DNA of 13,960 nucleotides from positions 1 through 13,960 of the forward strand of contig JALLBK010000893.1 in assembly GCA_036940085.1 (NCBI GenBank), read 5' to 3'. Under the pieces are notes generated by a model. That model was not told the DNA's origin. It made no database searches and saw nothing but the letters and a program-made list of their open reading frames with translations. The translations under genes were made by a program, and so were the position numbers. This stretch comes from Discostella pseudostelligera (lineage: Eukaryota > Bacillariophyta > Thalassiosirophyceae > Thalassiosirales > Thalassiosiraceae). Below are positions 1,036-13,960 of the stretch, piece by piece. Position 1 is the first letter of the stretch, and every line of letters starts with the position of its first letter.

Positions 1036-3154
1036 CTAATGATTGACGTTTGCAGTGTGTGCAGCATCCTCTTTCCTCTTAATTGTTTCAAGCATAGCGG
1101 CGAACGCTGCCTCCTCGTACATTGCCTTGGCATCTTCTGGTTGGACCGACCCCGCAGGTGTTGGGCATGCCATGAAGATCTCACCCATTTGTACGAGACC
1201 GTTCGCCCTCTTCGTCCTAGTTCCCTTGTCGACACTTTGATCATGTAAGACCATTTGAATCACCGTATGCAAGGTGGTTGTGATATCCACAACCGTGGTG
1301 GTCCACATAATATTCAGCATGCCGAAAATTTGCGCCTGCTCCATCGCTCTTTGCTTTTCCTCTCTCTCCTCTTCAGTTTTCGCCGCCGCAAGTTCCTGTG
1401 CAGCTGTTTGTTGCGTTGTCATCATTTTCATACCAGCGATGAGCCCATCACGCTTGGCTTTGGAAGAACCAGCAGATTTTTCCATTTTGGCGTGGTGTCC
1501 CTGGAGTGAATATGACGGTTCAAGAAAAGAGCTGTTTGAGATGGATCACAATGAATAGCGGATTCAAAAACGAGGGATTTACAATACATACCTTTGCCCA
1601 TTTGGCTATCGACGGCATTCCGACACCAGAGTCGAGGGCACCCAGAAACTGGTGTGCAGAGAGTGCATAAACCTTACCGATAAGTCGCGTCAGTTCAGGA
1701 CCATACGATGCCTGGCTCAAATTATCCGCTGATGATTCCCACATAGCCTTTGCTCCGTCGTAATCCTCGTTGATCCAAATCTGCAACCTCTCAGCGAGCT
1801 TAATTGCCAATCGAGTTACACGCCGCTGCTGTACGACCTTGGCATCTTTCTGTCCAATCTTAGGAGAATCAGCAACCAATGCACTCGTTGCTACTGCCAA
1901 CCTTCCAACATAATCCCCGAATTTGTCACTTCCAAACAAGAAGGCGAAAAGGATTGCCGGGTCAGCCTGCGTTTGCGCATGAGCAAGATCGGTTCGATCC
2001 GCCGACAGTCCTTCTTTGCCCATTTCATCATACTTCATACGGAGTTTAGGATCGGAAAGGACTTGGTATGCCTCGGAGATGTTCTTGAACTTCTCAGCGG
2101 CAACCTCGTCTTCCTTCCCAACTCTGTCCGGGTGACATTTCCTCGCCAAGAGATAATACTGTCGCTTAATCTGCGCAGGCTCGGCGCCGGGTGAAACTTC
2201 CAAATAGTCGTAGTAGGAGGTATCGACGACTTTAGAGGTGAGAGCTTTGTCAGGAAATTTGGACGATTCCTCCGCATCCTTCTTGGCTTCACCCAAAATA
2301 TCATCGTCATCTTCCGGCACGTCTAGTAGTGCATTTCGTTCTTCTTCGAGATTCGTGAGGATCCATTTACCCTCGACGTCATTCCACCACTTGCCACGCG
2401 ATGGCTCAATTATTGCACTTGGAGTGGAGGCAGCTCCACGGACTGATGAGGAGAAGATGTAAGATACATGGTCCCTCAAGAGGCTCAAACATTGTATTTC
2501 ACAACATGCAGCTCACCTATTTGAGTTACGCCCTGAATTGCTCCTCCAACAGCAATAGCTGCACCTCCAATCGCCCCCGCAACAGCTCCTATCCAAATGA
2601 AAGGAAAGATGAGAATTTTAATGTAAAAATGGGCGAATTGACAAGAATATATATCTCATGCTCAATCGCCCCTCACCTCCAGCCAATCCTAAAGCGCCTC
2701 CTATAATTCCCCCTTGCTTGGCGCCGGACACTGCTCCGATGGTCTGATCATAAAAAGTAAGAAGCACGTATCAACAAATGGCCGTGTATGAAAAAGGTCT
2801 TGGACAACTTCACTTCGCTCACCGGAAAGAGAACAACTAGTCCGACGGCACCCACCGCACCGGCGACTACATTGCTTACTCCGGAGGCAATTCCATGACC
2901 TAAATGTTTCGGGCTGATAATAAATGAACAAACAGAATGAGTGTATGGTGCATAGAGCATGGAGTGTAATGACGACGACACATGACCTAGCGTCGGACGT
3001 CCGCCGCTGCCATCTCCCGTTCCAGATGTGCTCACCGAGTGTTGTCAAGGATAGCCTGAAGTTGTTCTTTCGCCGCTTGCTGCTCGGCCTCAAGCTCTTC
3101 TTTCGTCTTCGCCTTTGGCTTTTGACCCTCGTTCGATTGCGTATTGTTGACCAT
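1036..3154 (-). CDS. J-domain (Hsp40) protein with glycine-zipper N-terminus and DnaJ-X C-terminus
   Basis: Co-chaperone that would recruit and stimulate Hsp70. Six exons, given on plus coordinates from 5' to 3' of the gene: 3036-3154, 2823-2913, 2677-2743, 2517-2588, 1592-2442 and 1036-1500. The introns are 122, 79, 88, 74 and 91 nt, all GT-AG, and the joined frame is open for 554 residues. Residues 1-40 are charged (KAKTKEELEAEQQAAKEQL). Residues about 45-116 are a Gly/Ala-rich run of GxxxG repeats (VVAGAVGAVG, GGIIGGALGLAGG, GAIGGAAIAVGG), a glycine-zipper membrane-type segment. VRGAAS and KWWNDVEGKW follow. The J domain spans about 193-258 with HPD at 220-222 and the helix IV-type SDPKLRMKYDEMG. 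The rest matches DnaJ-X proteins: ILFAFLFGSDKF, then after the last intron FGMLNIMWTTTVVDITTTL and the GEIF block. There is no zinc-finger region, so it is a class C J protein. The start ATG at 3154-3152 is the first in the exon. Four E2F-type boxes lie 168-267 bp upstream. The splice chain is inferred from signals and frame. Confidence 0.9.
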
Positions 3155-3256: not shown

Positions 3257-3284
3257 CAGAATGGATGATGNAGAATGGATGATG
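3257..3284. repeat. 14-bp tandem duplication containing the undetermined base
   Basis: AGAATGGATGATG occurs at 3258-3270 and again at 3272-3284, separated by N at 3271. If N is C, the unit is a perfect 14-mer repeated twice. It may be real, or it may be a trace of an assembly or consensus problem at the N. Confidence 0.7.
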
Positions 3285-3509: not shown

Positions 3510-6500
3510 TCAATCATCATATTGTTCCATTTCCTCATCGGCATCACCATTTTCCCACAGCATGTCCTGTTGCTGATACCTCTGATGAGTTGTTGGCGAT
3601 GAACCGGATTCTTTCAACCCACCTCCATCCGGCCAGAAACATGTGAATCCTATTGGACACAAAAGAGTGAGGAGTTAGACCATGTCGAACATTTGGAACA
3701 AACATCGGAGAGGTAAACGAACAGTACATAACTCACCCAAGTGGGCAATTCCTGCAGGCTTATTGCTTCTTCCTTGGGATCCACCGACGTTAGACATTTG
3801 TGAATTCGAATATTGCAATGGCTCTTCATGGTTGCAAATACTTTCGTTGATTTTGTGGAAGAATTTGAATGGCTCTATTTGAACTGCAGCGTTCACTGCG
3901 GTGTTCATCGCCTTCATAGTATTAGTGAGCGAAGCATGTTTCGTGAGAGCGTCAATTGCAAAAAAGGCACTCAATTCACACATCTCTCATGGTGTCTTAC
4001 CCATTGTGGTAATCCTCCGCCTGGATTTGCATGAGATAGCATTGTGATCCTGGTCTTATTGGGATCATCGGGATCCTTGGATATGACTGTAACATTTGAC
4101 GACATGAAGTAGACATGAGTTGATGCGCAATCAGTGGTTCATCACTTCATAGCAACACTTCAAAACTCACAATTGGCCCCTCGCAAGGCAAATCCGCGGC
4201 ATACATCTCCCTGGCCTATGATGTGCATGTGATCGATCAAGGAACAATAAGGCCACGATACCAATGAGCACGCTATGGAGAATGGCAGAAACTCACCTTC
4301 TACCATCACCCCTGGCATATCCTCATGTTCACAAGCCTGGTTTACAATCACCTGCGTCCCATCCCTCTTCCATCGATGGCTGCAATAGGTCACAAAGTCC
4401 CGTGGCTTCACAAACAAAATCTTCGGTACCTTACACCATGTAATTTTTGACGAGGGAGATAGTACCTCCACGTCGCGATGGTCGTCGATTAGCTCATTGT
4501 ACAGCGTCATCGTTTCGGGATTGGCGAGGAAAAAGCAAACTCGGTCGAGTGGTGCATCGATCGTGGAGTAGCATTTAAGACATGGGTAGAGTGGTTGTGG
4601 CTGCTGGGATGTTGTTGCTGTGCATTCAATATCGTTTTCGTCGCGAGAGTCAGGCATCCACTGTGATATCATTACATCATAGGAGAAAAATGAAAGCAAT
4701 ACGAGTGCGTGAGCATTAGTCGGGTGACAAACATATGAAGTGACAAACAACTGTCCCACCTTCAAAAACACTCTCGTCTGTCCAAACTGATTGAATTTTT
4801 TCTTCACAAAGTTATTACACGTGATTTCCTTCCATCCATCGTCCTGCTGCTGTTGATCGTCATCCCTCACATCTCCTCCACCTCGTGCTACTGCCCTTCC
4901 CGTTCCTGTTCCCCACCCTTCCTCCTCTGATAATAAAGCGGATGCCCACTGTTCGACTTCTTTACCGATACGCTCGAGTTGTTTTCTCCTTTGCTGTTTT
5001 TGTTTCAGTAGTTGCTGTTCCTGGCGGACGCCGTCGTAGTAATAATCCTCGTCATTGTCATTCGGCATTGTATCCCACTCAGTTGGCATTGGTCGTTGTT
5101 CCTGCCTTCTGCCCTCGGCCTCAGGATCATCATTGCCCTCCCAAATCTCTGGAATGTCTTCCATCCAATAGTCAAATTTCTCCTCCTCATCCTCCCGCGT
5201 CGGCTGTGGCTGATGCGGTTGCCTCCACCATTTCGATTTGGCATTGTCCTCCTCCTCGACACTTCTACTTCTTGCACTCCCCCCTCCCTGTCTATCAATG
5301 TCTGCTTTCTCCTTCTCATTTTTCTTGACCGCTCTCAATTCCTCCCGCAAAGCAATAATCTCTTCTCTCATACCACGGAGTTCCTGTATTGCCTCCGAGA
5401 GGAGAAGACTATCGTTGATGTTATTGTCCGTGCTCCTTTCATTGTTGCGGTTGCTGCTATTGCTATTCTTCGAACCCTTCGTTCGTTTGGGCAGTAATGA
5501 ACTCTTGCTCTTTGACGATGTTGCGGTGCGACGTTCGCTGGAAGAATTATTGTCGACTTCTCTTGCCTTTGGAATTGTTGCTGCTGTTGTTGCGTCCTCG
5601 CCGTTTCTTATCGACACATCTTTCCTTGGTGGTTGCTGCTGTCGTCGTTCAGGTATATCCATTGGAGATTGAGTAAGTAGTCGAGAAGGGGTATTCGCAG
5701 TAGGCGTCGGTAGGATAGGTGCTGCCGATGACAACATGGATGACAACGAAGATTGACGATTGGGTGGTGGTGCTGATGCACTTGGCATGGTCAGTACATC
5801 CTCCCGAATGCCATAGTAAAATCCAGTATTGTTCCTCCGTTTCCTTCTCTTTGAATTTGTTTGCATTGTCCTCCCCTTTGTCGTGGTGGAGGCAAGTGTT
5901 GCTGTTGCTGTTTTTGGCGGTAGCGGTGGTGCAGTATGTTGTTGCTTCCTCGCTCCTTCCTGCTGAGCCTCCTCCTGCTGCTGTTGCTGCTGTCGTTTTG
6001 GTCTCGTAGATACCATTTGTACTTCTCGTTCTTCTAATTCTTCAAGAGGTTGGCGCTGTTGTTTTTGTTGTTGCTGATGTGCCCACCAAGGTTGAAGATA
6101 ATTCTGCCGTATCAACTCTGTCAACCATCGGTGCATCGGTGCACCACCATCACTATCAAACGGATTCCCCCTTCTATCATCATTCATCTTCCTGTGCAAT
6201 TCATCATGATCATCACTGGTTGCGAAGAAGGGAGAGAGAATATCGTCTTCTCGGATGCCGTAGAAAAAACCAGTATTGTTCCTCCTCCGTCTCCTCCTTC
6301 TCCGCATTGCCGCCGAAGTCGATGCTGTGGTTGATAAAGTAGTGTGCGGTAATTGTTGCAGTAATGACGACGACCAGGGAGATAAAGCGCTAGAACTAGC
6401 GGTGGCTGCATCGACTAGAGAATTGCTACAGTGATGTAGAAGTAGGAGGAAGAATGTTGCCGCCGCCGCCACCGCCGTAGTAGTAGGTGTTGTCGTCATT

Positions 6501-6571
6501 GATGTAGCAACCGCCGGTCTCAAGGGTTGCATCGGCTGCCATTGTCGTTGTCGTCGCTGTCGTTGCTGCAT
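3510..6571 (-). CDS. START-domain lipid-binding protein with long low-complexity N-terminus
   Basis: The C-terminal START fold would bind a lipid in a hydrophobic cavity; the ligand cannot be read. Exons on plus coordinates, 5' to 3' of the gene: 4760-6571, 4297-4660, 4171-4215, 4001-4086, 3737-3911 and 3510-3649. GT-AG introns are 99, 81, 84, 89 and 87 nt, giving 873 residues. A hydrophobic AVAAAATFFLLLLHH at 33-47 resembles a signal peptide or anchor; M25 may be the true start, since the preceding 24 residues are polar and Gln/Arg-rich. Residues 60-570 are low complexity (Gln, Ser, Thr, Arg), with two copies of a basic run plus NNTGF(F/Y)YGIRED at 98-109 and 247-258, and a likely coiled coil at about 388-422. 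START covers about 570-800: YNELIDDHRDVEVL, KITWCKVPKILFVKPRDFV, YCSHRW, VNQACEHEDMPG, then across the introns GFALRGANF, KTRITMLSHANPGG and IEPFKFFHKIN. It ends FTCFWPDGGGLKES and an acidic tail. The first intron is in frame and stop-free, so a naive gene model would translate 33 extra residues and end at 4160. Confidence 0.9.
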
Positions 6572-6882
6572 CTCCTTGCCGCGGACGAAGAAGTCGTCGC
6601 TTCCGTATCTATGATGGCCTTTGATTATTGATTAAGTATGATGGCCCCATGCCCATGCCCATGCGCCTTTGTTGATGACAGCATCAGCGTAGCGTAAGCA
6701 GCATGCCGTTACGTTGAGTAGGGGTTATGGTGCATGAGGCAGATACTTAACGGGGGCAAATAGTCCAATGACACGTCATTTAAGGTTTTGGTGCACCGCC
6801 TTCCACCTTCAATTGAAAGATACTATTCCTACGCATGTGCAAGGGACCTGATTTCTCTCCACCTTTCGGGATGAGAAAGTTG

Positions 6883-8829: not shown

Positions 8830-10729
8830 ATGTCAGCAACGAGCAAGCGACGCGGCAAACGATCGCGTTCGATGATGACGATGTGCCCGTCGTCGGCGTC
8901 GTCGCCGTCATCATCATCTGCCGTAGTGATGCTGGCCACTGTCTTGTCGATCATGAGCAGCAGCGGTGGCAATAGCATGGTACATGCTGCCTATTTCTCA
9001 TCATCATCATATCCGGCTGCATTCGCTACTGCTCCCACTGGTGATAGATCGCACAGTGTACTGCATCTGCCTCGACATGCATCGTCTCTGCGACTCTCCG
9101 CCAAGCGACGAGATGTCGACAATTTCAACAACAAAGCCAACATGATTGACAAATCCACCCTCGAGAAAAATGTCGCCACCCTCTGCACCACACTTGGCTT
9201 CTCTGCGTTCTTTCTCATCAACCCACTCATACCACACCTACCGTACTCCTCCTTTCTATCCTCGGCCCATGCCGAAGATGAACTCTATGCCAAATACGGT
9301 GGCAAAGGTCTTGACACCTCCTTAGTTGATAAAGACTGCCTTCTCAATCATTGCTCCCTCCAAGCCAAAGCATGTCTACAAGATGATCCCGACTGTCGCA
9401 AGGGATTAACCTGCACTGCCAAATGCCTCGGTGATAATTCCTGCATCACTGGTTGTTTTGCCAAGTATGGCAATTCCAACTTAGATAATTTATTAAAATG
9501 CACCATTGAAGATCATGAATGTATCAAAGTGGCGATATTGGAGGGAGGGGCGGATAGATATGGAGAAGAACCGGCAAGTCCTGCACCGACGGTACAAAAG
9601 TTCGATATGAATAGTATGGAAGGAACATGGTATAAAGTTGCGGGGTACAATCCCAATTATGATTGTTATGCTTGTCAACGGAATACTTTTTCATCACCGC
9701 AACATGGTAATGAGAATGAGAGTTATGGAATCGGGGGATTGTTGGGTGCGATCTCGGGAAAGAATGCCGATCGACTCCAAGTCGATGTGGAATTCAGTAT
9801 GCCTCGACTACTCGACGATGGAAGTCCACCTCCTCCCAGTGGAGTGCGGGAAACATTTGTCGCCAATGCCAATGCTGCCGACATTAACACAGGTGGTGTG
9901 GGGTTGCAAAGTGTGGGATACAATCAGTATTCAACCCATGAGACGATGGTGTTTGATACGGTGAGCAATGGGGACAATGTCTTGGAGAACATTATGAAGT
10001 TGGGTAAGAAGGGTGAGGAGAAGTTGTATTCTCGAACGGCCCATTCGGAGGGAGAGATGTTTGGATTGAGTAAGTCGATCTGTTTTGTACATGGAGTGCA
10101 TATCTTTGAAGTCTCATGTCTAACATCTCTCGCTCTGCTTGCATTCTACTCGATCGACAGAATTCTGGGAAAACTGGTACATCATTGGCCAAAACGATCC
10201 CTATCAAGATGAATTCAAATTCATCTACTACAATGGCAAGACACGGCAGAACACCTACGATGGTGCCTTTGTCTACAGCCGTACTCGCACTCTCAGTCCG
10301 TCAAGTATGGAAAAAGTGTACCAAATTGCCAAAGATGCTGGTATGAATCCAGATCAATTTTGCAAGATTCAGAATAATTGCTTTGAGAATGATGCATCAG
10401 GAACTACCAGTGGCCTGTCGTCACCGGCCTATGTCGAACGAGAAGGATTGGGCAGTCCAACCAATCCCTTCCGGGGTATACTGGCCAGCACGCGCGTATC
10501 GGAAATATTGGGTGTAGAGTCGGTAGCTGCTGAGAGTATCATTCCGCAAACGATTGCGGATGATTACCTGAAGCAGCAGTTATCACAACAGCCATCATCA
10601 TTCACAAGTAGTAGACCGTGGTGGAAAGAGGTGGGAGACTATCTGGAAGATCCAAGACGGCATTTCCGATTGATGGATAGTTTACGAACGGATATGGATT
10701 GGCCAGAGTATATTAAGCAGAGGAATTGA
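8830..10729 (+). CDS. Violaxanthin de-epoxidase family protein (VDE-related type), thylakoid lumen
   Basis: Lumenal lipocalin-type protein of the VDE family; VDE itself reduces epoxy-xanthophylls in photoprotection, and diatoms carry VDE, VDL and VDR forms. Exons 8830-10069 and 10161-10729; the 91-nt GT-AG intron joins MFGL to KFWENWYIIGQNDPYQ; 602 residues. An in-frame stop at 8779 makes ATG 8830 the first start. Targeting is layered. A signal peptide has its hydrophobic core at about 31-43. YPAAFATAP (61-69) resembles the diatom ASAFAP plastid motif, and a second hydrophobic segment (about 115-146) ends in AHA, giving likely lumenal cleavage after Ala148. Ten cysteines lie in residues 170-231 (170, 175, 182, 189, 195, 199, 205, 209, 224, 231). 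The lipocalin part begins GTWYKVAGYNPNYDCYACQ and continues to FKFIYYNGKTRQNTYDGAF and FCKIQNNCF. The YDCYACQ wording and CIKVAILEGGAD after the Cys block fit VDR better than classical VDE, so true de-epoxidase activity is uncertain. The C-terminus lacks the Glu-rich coil of VDE. Confidence 0.9.
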
Positions 10730-11054: not shown

Positions 11055-11568
11055 CTACTTCTTGTTATTTTTGTCGTCCTTCAGTGCAAGCGATGAAACC
11101 AACATTTCACGAGTACCATCAACATCCAACCCTCTTGCATGGGCCTTAAAGCGTAATTCACTGATTGGCATCATACCAATTTATGGCCGACCTCCTCTTG
11201 CATCTGTTTCCTCGCCATTGCTACCACCATGTCCTCAAAAATCCTCTGGGGAAGTGATTCAGTGATACCTTGTCAATAATCTCCAAGGGGTTCTCAGTGG
11301 CATAAACCGTGGCAGCTCCCTCAGTAGGGCACAGTTCTTTGCATCAGCAAATTGAAGGTTCTCTAGAAGGTTTTCTGAATTGAATTTCATTGTTGAGGAG
11401 GCATACTTTGTTTCGGCTTGTAGTATGAGGTTGGTCGCCCCATACTTATTTGCAATGTCAATGAGCTCCTTTATGTGCATGACATCACCATCAAATTTAG
11501 GCAGCTCACAGCCATAAATGTAGCGCAGCAAATGCCCAAAGGTATGAGGTGACACATCATGAATTGCA

Positions 11569-11582
11569 ACTTGGGACTTGGG
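11569..11582. repeat. 7-bp tandem duplication, breaks BTB frame
   Basis: ACTTGGG is repeated exactly twice. With one unit removed, the minus strand reads SPSQVAIHDVSPHTFGHLL without a break; with both, it stops after SPSQVPSCNS. Confidence 0.9.
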
Positions 11583-11732
11583 ATGGCGACTTCTCAGTGA
11601 TAATCAATTCAGCAAGCAATGGGGCAGCCTTCTGAAGGATGATATGATGAGCATAAAACTTGGTTGTCAATAGCTTGATTTCATCCTCACTTCCTTTATC
11701 ATTCGCATTCGCTCCTCCCACCTCGAACACAG

Positions 11733-11746
11733 TATATGCTATATGC
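11733..11746. repeat. 7-bp tandem duplication, breaks BTB frame
   Basis: TATATGC is repeated exactly twice. With one unit removed, the minus strand reads FNDQEFAYTVFEVGG, the start of the BTB domain; with both, it shifts to AYSIYCVRGG and soon stops. Confidence 0.9.
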
Positions 11747-12113
11747 AAATTCCTGATCATTGAACAAATCCTGAACCGTTTTGCATGCAGATGGATTGAT
11801 TGGAATGAATGCATGGAACGGATAATTGACTGGCGCCATTAAGACTTCAACCACCAAGGCTTCATGAACAAGAAAGGACAATAACGTTGGTCGCATGCCA
11901 TCTTTGAGATTAATGCATTTCTTATCCCCACAACTGATTGCTGGATACTCAGTGACAATATTTTTTATCGAAATAGCAAATTTTACAGTGCAGCTCGTGC
12001 TTGATAGATACCTGAGGTCTACCCAGGCGTGAGAGCCAGGCCTTGAAGGACATAGCGTCAGATCCCAATCAACACCCAAGCAAGAAAATCAAGATGAATC
12101 CATGGAAGCCCGT

Positions 12114-12127
12114 AGTATCTAGTATCT
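12114..12127. repeat. 7-bp tandem duplication
   Basis: AGTATCT is repeated exactly twice, in the degraded 5' part of pseudogene copy 1. The local sequence is too diverged from copy 2 to show the ancestral state. Confidence 0.9.
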
Positions 12128-12181
12128 GATTTCGCCACCCAATGTTGACACTCAAGTGAAGGCATCCCCACATGAACGTCC

Positions 12182-12195
12182 GTATTCGGTATTCG
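12182..12195. repeat. 7-bp tandem duplication
   Basis: GTATTCG is repeated exactly twice. The matching place in copy 2 (about 13885-13897, between CATGAAC and GTTAGGC) has a single, shorter version, consistent with an insertion in copy 1. Confidence 0.9.
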
Positions 12196-12570
12196 TCGTT
12201 AGGCTTCAGCTGTGGTTAGACATCATTTGATGGACCAGACACCAGAAGGTATGGAGAAAATTGGATTGATGGATGTTGAAGACAAATCGGGTGAATTGTG
12301 ATTATGTCAAAGCAATGTTCCTCTTCCCCTTTGGTTGAATAATGAGAGCTTCACTTTGATGCAGACCACTTGCAAGATCATTGAATTTTTTTGAACGATC
12401 ACATAGCAGCATGTCAGTTCATTTTATGCATCTCACCACCATGCGACACTTGCAAATTGCCCCGTGTTTCCTGTCCTTCTGGAAATGAATTGATCCCTCT
12501 CATATGTCAGATCCTAGCTTGCTCTCAAATTGGTAGTTCACGCATGGGCAAATTATTAAATTTTGAACCA

Positions 12571-12584
12571 TTGCATCTTGCATC
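12571..12584. repeat. 7-bp tandem duplication
   Basis: TTGCATC is repeated exactly twice, in the spacer between the pseudogene copies. Confidence 0.9.
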
Positions 12585-12814
12585 CATTCCCATACACAAA
12601 TGTACGGATCAACAAGATATGCAATGATGCACATGTTGTCGCCACCGCCACGTGCAGCGCACCTCCTAACTTGCATGTTTCTTTGTCATCCCGAGACTTG
12701 GATTTCATGAAGATTAGCATCAGCATAGGTAGTCCAAAGCTGAATTAAGGCTTTATCGTTCAGTTGACATTGTCACCTTTGTCGCGTGTCATAGTCATAG
12801 TCATGCTGTCCACA

Positions 12815-12828
12815 TTGGTGTTTGGTGT
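12815..12828. repeat. 7-bp tandem duplication
   Basis: TTGGTGT is repeated exactly twice, and the next two bases (TG at 12829-12830) keep period 7 for one base more. It lies 113 bp past the 3' end of copy 2. Confidence 0.9.
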
Positions 12829-13310
12829 TGTGTTAGCTGGTCGAAATGTTCTTACTTGTTGCACCGATTGACAGCCCAGTTTCATTCAGATCCCTTGTCA
12901 TTACCAATGCCACCACGAAAACCATATACTTCATGGGTGACTATTCATCATCTTCATCTTCACTCTCCGAATCCTTACCATCTTGCTTGTTATCCAAATC
13001 ATGCTGAGAAAGAGCAGAAATCGACATATCCCGAGACCCATCATCATCCAATCCTTTCGTGTAAGCTTTATTGGCAAAGTTCACTAACCAACATTGTACT
13101 TAATTCCCACACAGCTTGCTTTTCTTTCATATCTTTTCTCGTCATTGCTACCAACATATCTTTCATGAATCCCTCTGGGGAAGTGATCCATTGGCACTTT
13201 GTCAACAATCTCCGAAGGGTGACTCACTACGTAAATCAGAACAGCTTCACTCATTTCTCAGTAGGGCACAGTTCTTTGTTCTCCAGAAGGTTTTCTGAAT
13301 TGGTTTTCAT

Positions 13311-13448
13311 TGAAGAGGCATAATTTGCTTCGGCTTGTAGTATGAGGTTGGTCACCCCATACTTATTTGCAATCTCAATGAGGAGGCATAATATGTTTCG
13401 GCTTGTAGTTCGAGGTTGGTCGCCCCATACTTATTGGCGATATCAATG
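13311..13448. repeat. Diverged 68-bp tandem duplication in BTB copy 2
   Basis: Two units with period 68, anchored by GAGGCATA at 13315 and 13383 and by CCCCAT at 13355 and 13423. The units differ at several bases. The unit at 13311-13380 is closer to the matching part of copy 1 (about 11397-11464) than it is to its neighbour unit. As 68 is not a multiple of three, it breaks the frame. Confidence 0.85.
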
Positions 13449-13800
13449 ATTTCCCATAATCTCATGGCCATAAATGTAGCGTAAAACAATTTAAATACAT
13501 CAGGTGATACATTGTGAATTTTGATGCACAGGATAACAAATACAGCAGTCAACCACAAATAACAAGACTCTCCAACATTTCTCATTTGATACGGAATACA
13601 TAATCAAACACATGGTCACATAGGAAGGTGGTAGGAGTACTTTGAGGTACTAGTTCGACCTGAGTACCGTAACAATTAGGAATCTTAAGAGCGTCAATAA
13701 TTTTGCAGCTTGTGCTAGATCGATATCTAAGCTCTAACTCTAATTTGGTAGGATGACGGATGCGGATACTCAGATCCCATTCACACCCCAACTGCACCCT

Positions 13801-13814
13801 GTTCAACGTTCAAC
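13801..13814. repeat. 7-bp tandem duplication
   Basis: GTTCAAC is repeated exactly twice in the 5' part of pseudogene copy 2, next to an in-frame TGA on the minus strand. Confidence 0.9.
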
Positions 13815-13960
13815 GCATGAGAGTGAAAGTGAACCATAATTTTCGCCCACTGTGATAATCAGAGGAAGGAGTCCCCACATGAACATCCATATTGTTAGGC
13901 CTTGGCAGAAGTGAGACATGATGCACAACTTAATTTGAAGCCGCTACCACCTCCATCGCC

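Follow-up and report, generated by a model that had tools for sequence, protein, structure and literature searches.

Near one end of the window, by which we mean the whole stretch of 13960 nucleotides analyzed here, seven exact tandem duplications of 7 bp lie within 2.25 kb. The question raised by this locus is which process produces adjacent copies of such regular length, and whether it is a property of the locus or of the genome. The window is located on contig C792 of a genome of 23.04 Mb in 963 contigs, which encodes silicon transporters (three strong matches, best E-value of 8.1e-224), a protein family that is a marker of diatoms. Ordinary genes lie upstream of the cluster, including those of a VTT-domain protein, a DnaJ protein, and a violaxanthin de-epoxidase. 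The cluster itself overlaps two broken BTB gene copies on the minus strand and the sequence that separates them. Copy A (11064..12175) was located by tblastn with protein P0121 and other relatives; it is read in three successive frames, and its upstream end (around 12090-12175) is a weak match. The BTB domain was matched in this copy with 25.3 bits for a cut-off of 20.5 (window 11262-11603), and a match to the BTB family was also found at positions 11406-11591 of C792. Copy B (12998..13893) is of the same gene type and is more decayed. The BTB gene under the cluster is interrupted by frameshifts. Copy B also contains a 68-bp tandem duplication at 13307-13449 (2.1 copies, 86% match).

The seven duplications listed in the initial annotation are all exact at their coordinates, and four of them have one extra matching base. 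They are ACTTGGG (11569..11583, with the extra base) and TATATGC (11733..11746) in copy A, TAGTATC (12113..12127, with the extra base, so that the start can be read as 12114 or 12113), GTATTCG (12182..12195), TTGCATC (12571..12584), TTGGTGT (12815..12829, with the extra base), and GTTCAAC (13801..13815, with the extra base) in copy B. Outside the cluster, the duplication already reported at 6621..6634 is present, but it is not the only one: a second, TCCTCTT at 1067..1080, had been missed, which brings the total in the whole window to nine. Between positions 11100 and 13960, the seven duplications compare with a mean of 0.26 and a maximum of 1 across 19 control lags, and the earlier chance estimate of 0.15 was thus of the right order. 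The statement that the unit is always 7 bp did not hold, since 6-bp duplications are also in excess, both across the genome sample described below and in this same region (6 versus 0.79 expected). The latter are CATTCG (11700..11712, a run of 7), CGCCAC (12640..12651), GTCATA (12788..12804, 2.8 copies), TCATCT (12948..12962, 2.5 copies), CTCTAA (13732..13743), and AGTGAA (13822..13833). Shorter units are close to expectation (3 versus 2.6 at 5 bp and 12 versus 10.2 at 4 bp), and the exact-copy count found no tandem duplication of 8-11 bp in the region.

To establish the direction of change, we used as relatives 26 uninterrupted BTB proteins, obtained by searching with pieces of copy A. With all 14 of the relatives listed (of 26), the alignment of copy A passes through three frames in succession, and the frame switches at both duplications, from -1 to -2 at site 11733 and from -2 to -3 at site 11569. 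A paralogue from the same genome gives the same frame switches as the BTB relatives. Measured residue by residue, there is a net gain of 7 nt at 11733 relative to 18 of the 23 measurable relatives and at 11569 relative to 17 of 23 (3 of the 26 gave no pair at either site); the other length values, found with 5 relatives at 11733 and 6 at 11569, come from gapped alignments or more distant anchors. A third case was found outside the window, at position 845 of stretch L020 of the genome sample, where the duplication matches an exact 7-bp gap in an inverted copy that is 90% identical and on the same contig. Hence, in the three cases that can be cleanly tested (11733, 11569, and L020:845), the duplications are insertions relative to homologues with a single unit. 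For site 12182, the corresponding place in copy B carries a single unit along with other base differences, as read from the sequence. The length spectrum described below points to a mutational process of short reach, which has also broken an old gene copy in the window.

To analyze the length spectrum of the duplications beyond the window, we used 24 stretches of 10 kb (240 kb, around 1% of the 23-Mb genome), of which four make up the initial 40 kb of contig C1 and the others are the initial 10 kb of each of 20 further contigs, chosen by number and not by content. Contig starts are over-represented in this sample. Each base was assigned to a class by the longest stop-to-stop frame covering it, which is a proxy for annotation: non-ORF (no frame of 90 codons, 29.4 kb), middle (59.6 kb), or long ORF (at least 200 codons, 151 kb). 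The controls were equally long runs at 19 lags between 13 and 40, leaving out multiples of three. We used these lags in place of Markov expectations because coding and low-complexity sequences inflate the latter.

In the non-ORF class, we identified 30 exact duplications of 7 bp for a mean of 5.8 and a maximum of 13 across the 19 control lags, i.e., an excess of 24.2 (bootstrap 12.4-39.7). At 6 bp there were 47 for a mean of 12.6 and a maximum of 26. The signal is gone immediately above: 4 versus 3.4 at 8 bp (an excess of 0.6) and 1 versus 1.5 at 9 bp. Below, the same lag test, before removal of low-complexity units, gave 165 versus 118.5 at 4 bp and 47 versus 37.0 at 5 bp. Once low-complexity units were removed, the non-ORF counts were 42 versus 11.2 at 6 bp, 29 versus 5.1 at 7 bp, and 3 versus 2.8 at 8 bp, while those at 4 bp (108 versus 76, maximum 111) and 5 bp (43 versus 31, maximum 45) were inside the control range. 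In the middle class, the corresponding counts at 4 bp (204 versus 143, maximum 159) and 5 bp (78 versus 53, maximum 66) were above the controls. The excess in the non-ORF class has therefore a sharp upper limit at 7 bp and a lower edge without definition, with 4-5 bp differing by class. The initial annotation had proposed a count by unit length in which 7 bp would stand out over both neighbors. In this sample of about 1% of the genome, 7 bp greatly exceeds 8 bp but does not exceed 6 bp in absolute numbers. As the count at 6 bp is at least that at 7 bp, the reach of the process is 6-7 bp and not a fixed 7.

The two other classes are affected by coding sequence. The middle class has 37 duplications versus 7.4 at 7 bp and 5 versus 2.9 at 8 bp, with further excesses at 6, 9, and 12 bp (15 versus 1.3 at 9 bp). 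The excesses at 6, 9, and 12 bp are at least partly coding, and we read the one at 9 bp as in-frame protein repeats. In long ORFs, the excesses at 6 bp (241 versus 37.4), 9 bp (21 versus 2.3), and 12 bp were set aside as in-frame protein repeats and not taken as a signal of the duplication process. Residual coding sequence or hexamer repeats may also contribute to the 6-bp excess outside long ORFs. At lag 11, a seeming excess was largely due to one 11-bp minisatellite in L020. This minisatellite (TGCTGTGA core) is present at either end of L020, in opposite orientations (L020:1-60 and L020:9675-9790), and a 145-bp inverted repeat lies directly inside these ends.

Is the window then a hotspot? 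Its cluster was picked by eye. At the non-ORF density of the genome, the probability of at least seven duplications in 2.25 kb is 0.009, a value that ignores both the choice by eye and the overdispersion of 7-bp density between the sampled stretches (chi2/df of 1.96). Stretches L021 and L038 each reach 5 duplications of 7 bp in 2.25 kb, and they match only themselves and short partial hits in the genome. We thus rejected a hotspot tied to the BTB copies as the main cause. The framing of the cluster as local is weakened accordingly, the duplications being widespread and gathering where frameshifts are tolerated. The cluster in the window would then consist of hits accumulating in unconstrained BTB pseudogenes.

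Selection against frameshifts is visible in the long ORFs. There, exact duplications of 7 bp show no clear excess (16 versus 11.5 in 151 kb), whereas the non-ORF rate would add around 124. Their scarcity is explained by the purging of frameshifting copies, and the duplications are therefore part of real sequence under selection. We also counted copies with one mismatch, clear of the exact ones. In the non-ORF class these are in excess at 6 bp (129 versus 78, maximum 101) and 7 bp (59 versus 30, maximum 39), which implies that the process is not merely recent. There is no such excess in this class at 5, 8, or 9 bp (15 versus 11.8, maximum 18, at 8 bp; 3 versus 5.2 at 9 bp). At 10 bp the counts are at or slightly over the control maximum (6 versus 2.2, maximum 6, in the non-ORF class; 8 versus 3.6, maximum 7, in a second count). 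Long ORFs have no excess of one-mismatch copies at 7 bp (110 versus 117).

The junctions themselves give indications on how the copies arose. The match stops at 7 bp in 38 of 67 sites located outside long ORFs, continues by one base in 22, and by more in 7. This is near what is expected by chance, and microhomology is therefore not needed. Runs of 6 bp extend further than those of 7 bp. The copies are adjacent: runs of exactly 7 bp number 16 at spacer 0, 1 at spacer 1, 1 at spacer 2, and 1 to 7 at each spacer up to 15. Since the 7-bp runs have no peak at any spacer above 0, we rejected filler between the copies. The base composition of 41 exact sites over 13 positions had its largest deviations at -1 (chi2 of 9.6) and -2 (8.2, both with 3 df), which are not striking after 13 tests. 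There is thus no sign of a strong target motif, and a weak consensus may have escaped detection. A limit set by overhang melting found no support either: the units are not AT-rich, and their GC content at 7 bp (0.460) is that of the flanks (0.478, p of 0.45).

On balance, we lean towards a mutation process that acts across the genome of this diatom and adds exact copies of 6 or 7 bp next to the original, by fill-in and joining of staggered breaks. If the two strands were cut or nicked at opposed positions 6-7 nt from each other, the outcome would be a double-strand break whose short overhangs are complementary. Once each of these was filled in, joining of the ends would double the stretch between the nicks. 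A staggered cut followed by fill-in and joining fits the data because there is no sign of microhomology or of a strong motif at 7 bp, the copies are exact and adjacent, and the upper limit is abrupt. This scheme would account for the observations apart from the particular reach of the stagger. A Ku domain is encoded in the genome (presence only), which makes end joining plausible. The initial annotation had argued against slippage on a favored motif, and the junctions support this. As one of two options for a single process, it had proposed staggered cuts that are filled in and joined; this scheme fits, with a stagger of 6-7 nt and not the fixed 7 nt proposed. A bolder version of this reading is that a dedicated or lineage-specific activity cuts with a stagger of 6-7 nt almost anywhere and leaves this scar. 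Such an activity might come from a nuclease, from a transposase or integrase that is domesticated or abortive, or from an unusual step of repair, and duplications of 6-7 bp would then be a main force in the evolution of non-coding DNA and dead genes. We hold this version as tentative and somewhat doubtful. Among candidates, an RNA-guided nuclease of the Cas12f/TnpB kind was rejected, with a single match below the cut-off.

The strongest rival is the loss of longer duplications by slippage. One might suppose that duplications of many lengths arise by ordinary short-insertion mutation, and that slippage or annealing between the copies soon removes those from 8 bp upwards, so that the ones up to 7 bp accumulate. 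This would explain the cliff without a special cutting enzyme, and a wider range of lengths below 8 bp is consistent with the middle class, where units of 4-5 bp are in some excess. In flies and primates, short insertions also arise mainly by short tandem duplication (PMC2374710). Yet loss should grow gradually with length, whereas the excess falls from 24.2 at 7 bp to 0.6 at 8 bp. Besides, one-mismatch copies of 8 and 9 bp, which are harder to remove, are without excess in the non-ORF class. We consider this explanation unlikely.

The duplications could also be footprints of mobile elements, where a target duplication of 6-7 bp is made at insertion and an exact excision leaves two units. The narrow length and the exact adjacent copies without microhomology are in its favor, and groups of elements with such target duplications exist, e.g., Dada. 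Exact excision without filler every time would be unusual, which weighs against it. The initial annotation had mentioned insertion and clean excision of elements with 7-bp target duplications as an option, but in 254 kb (around 1% of the genome) we found no pair of terminal inverted repeats (at least 9 bp, 80-6000 bp apart) with 7-bp flanking repeats; candidates with flanking repeats of other lengths numbered 3 at 6 bp and 1 at 8 bp. When three duplication-rich stretches were searched against the genome, they matched themselves, the second copy in the window, and a few short partial hits. Hence, the duplication-dense stretches are nearly single-copy. A retroviral-type integrase domain was only found below the cut-off, and the 41 exact sites give no sign of a strong target motif. 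Excision of mobile elements is thus the less likely account, in a search that covered inverted-repeat elements and about 1% of the genome, and we regard it as improbable.

Replication slippage on microhomology or hairpins generates tandem repeats in general, and the six-base repeats found here include longer arrays. It is nevertheless a very improbable origin of the 7-bp copies, whose extension past the unit is near chance at the 67 sites, which show no enrichment of hairpins (stems of at least 6 in a share of 0.19 versus 0.19), and which have fewer than three full copies at 59 of the 63 sites in the first 200 kb. Hairpin-driven slippage was rejected together with adjacent inverted duplications, there being an excess of neither. 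Finally, an artefact of assembly, sequencing, or selection by eye is hardly credible: the assembly is fragmented (963 contigs) and holds scaffold-join artefacts, in which one N has the same sequence on either side, and the cluster was selected by eye, but the 7-bp copies adjoin directly with no N between them, the excess recurs in stretches chosen without regard to duplications, and an artefact would neither end at 7 bp nor spare long open frames (16 versus 11.5 in 151 kb, against 30 versus 5.8 in 29 kb of non-ORF sequence).

The joins with a single N were observed as near-identical repeats of 66-72 bp at L013:6542-6686, L021:7132-7259, L021:7748-7892, L039:9284-9428, and L025:1-139, with copies of 72 bp in L013, L021, and L039. 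The window has one as well, at 3258-3284, with 13-bp copies. These repeats are unmerged overlaps at scaffold joins and are able to mislead repeat counts.

How does the favored process, fill-in and joining of staggered breaks, compare with known systems? Target-site duplications of transposons such as Dada have the same narrow unit of 6-7 bp. Here, in contrast, the copies touch, and no element, inverted repeats, or strong motif was found in the sample. Short duplications linked to topoisomerase II resemble ours in that the stagger of the cut sets the length, but the stagger of type II topoisomerases is 4 nt, versus 6-7 here. There is also a likeness to small tandem duplications from the end joining of staggered breaks, such as those made by paired nicks (PMC8355091, PMC7971508), where copies are exact and adjacent, arise by insertion and not by slippage, and, in the NHEJ class, need no microhomology. 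Fill-in by Pol alpha-primase/CST followed by NHEJ was shown in mouse and human cells, with fill-in duplications studied at overhangs of 43-50 bp (PMC8355091). For natural insertions in rice, fill-in and end joining are inferred, with tandem duplications beyond 100 bp, in a paper that cites Vaughn and Bennetzen 2014, Messer and Arndt 2007, and Schiml 2016 (PMC7971508). From these overhangs of 43-50 bp and the rice duplications of more than 100 bp, known end joining therefore predicts no cliff at 8 bp. Lengths in rice and mouse are broad, up to 100 bp or beyond, whereas the excess in the diatom is at 6-7 bp and gone at 8. A broad range, set by the spacing of the nicks, is not strictly required by the mechanism.

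In primates and flies, most short insertions are tandem duplications, either simple or complex (PMC2374710). They resemble ours in that short exact duplications are the main insertion class, and some length peaks are unexplained there too. They differ in following geometric length regimes, with primate peaks at, e.g., 4 and 8 bp; the portion of that paper available describes no cliff between 7 and 8 bp. A mutation-accumulation study in Phaeodactylum reports few indels in its accessible part (PMC6604790). In the open literature searched, we found no paper on a spectrum of 6-7 bp tandem duplications in diatoms. Hence, small tandem duplications are known as a kind, and the unusual part is the sharp spectrum at 6-7 bp, measured in around 1% of one genome. 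Should this spectrum be confirmed over the whole genome and among new mutations, it would be a mutational signature that carries its own ruler, and the enzyme could be sought by its stagger. Many insertions in this genome could then be due to the process, which would offer a simple route to the death of gene copies. Counting exact tandem duplications per unit length against spaced repeats is a cheap test for any genome.

Two features of the remainder of the window deserve mention. An open frame of 803 amino acids on the minus strand (4160-6571) matches a START domain below the cut-off. It also contains a repeated motif, NNTGFFYGIRED and NNTGFYYGIRED, with a DNA repeat at 5799-5838 and 6246-6285 (85%). 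The violaxanthin de-epoxidase domain, at 8830-10729 on the plus strand, is divided between two open frames that overlap, 8830-10212 and 10139-10729, a split that we take to be probably an intron.
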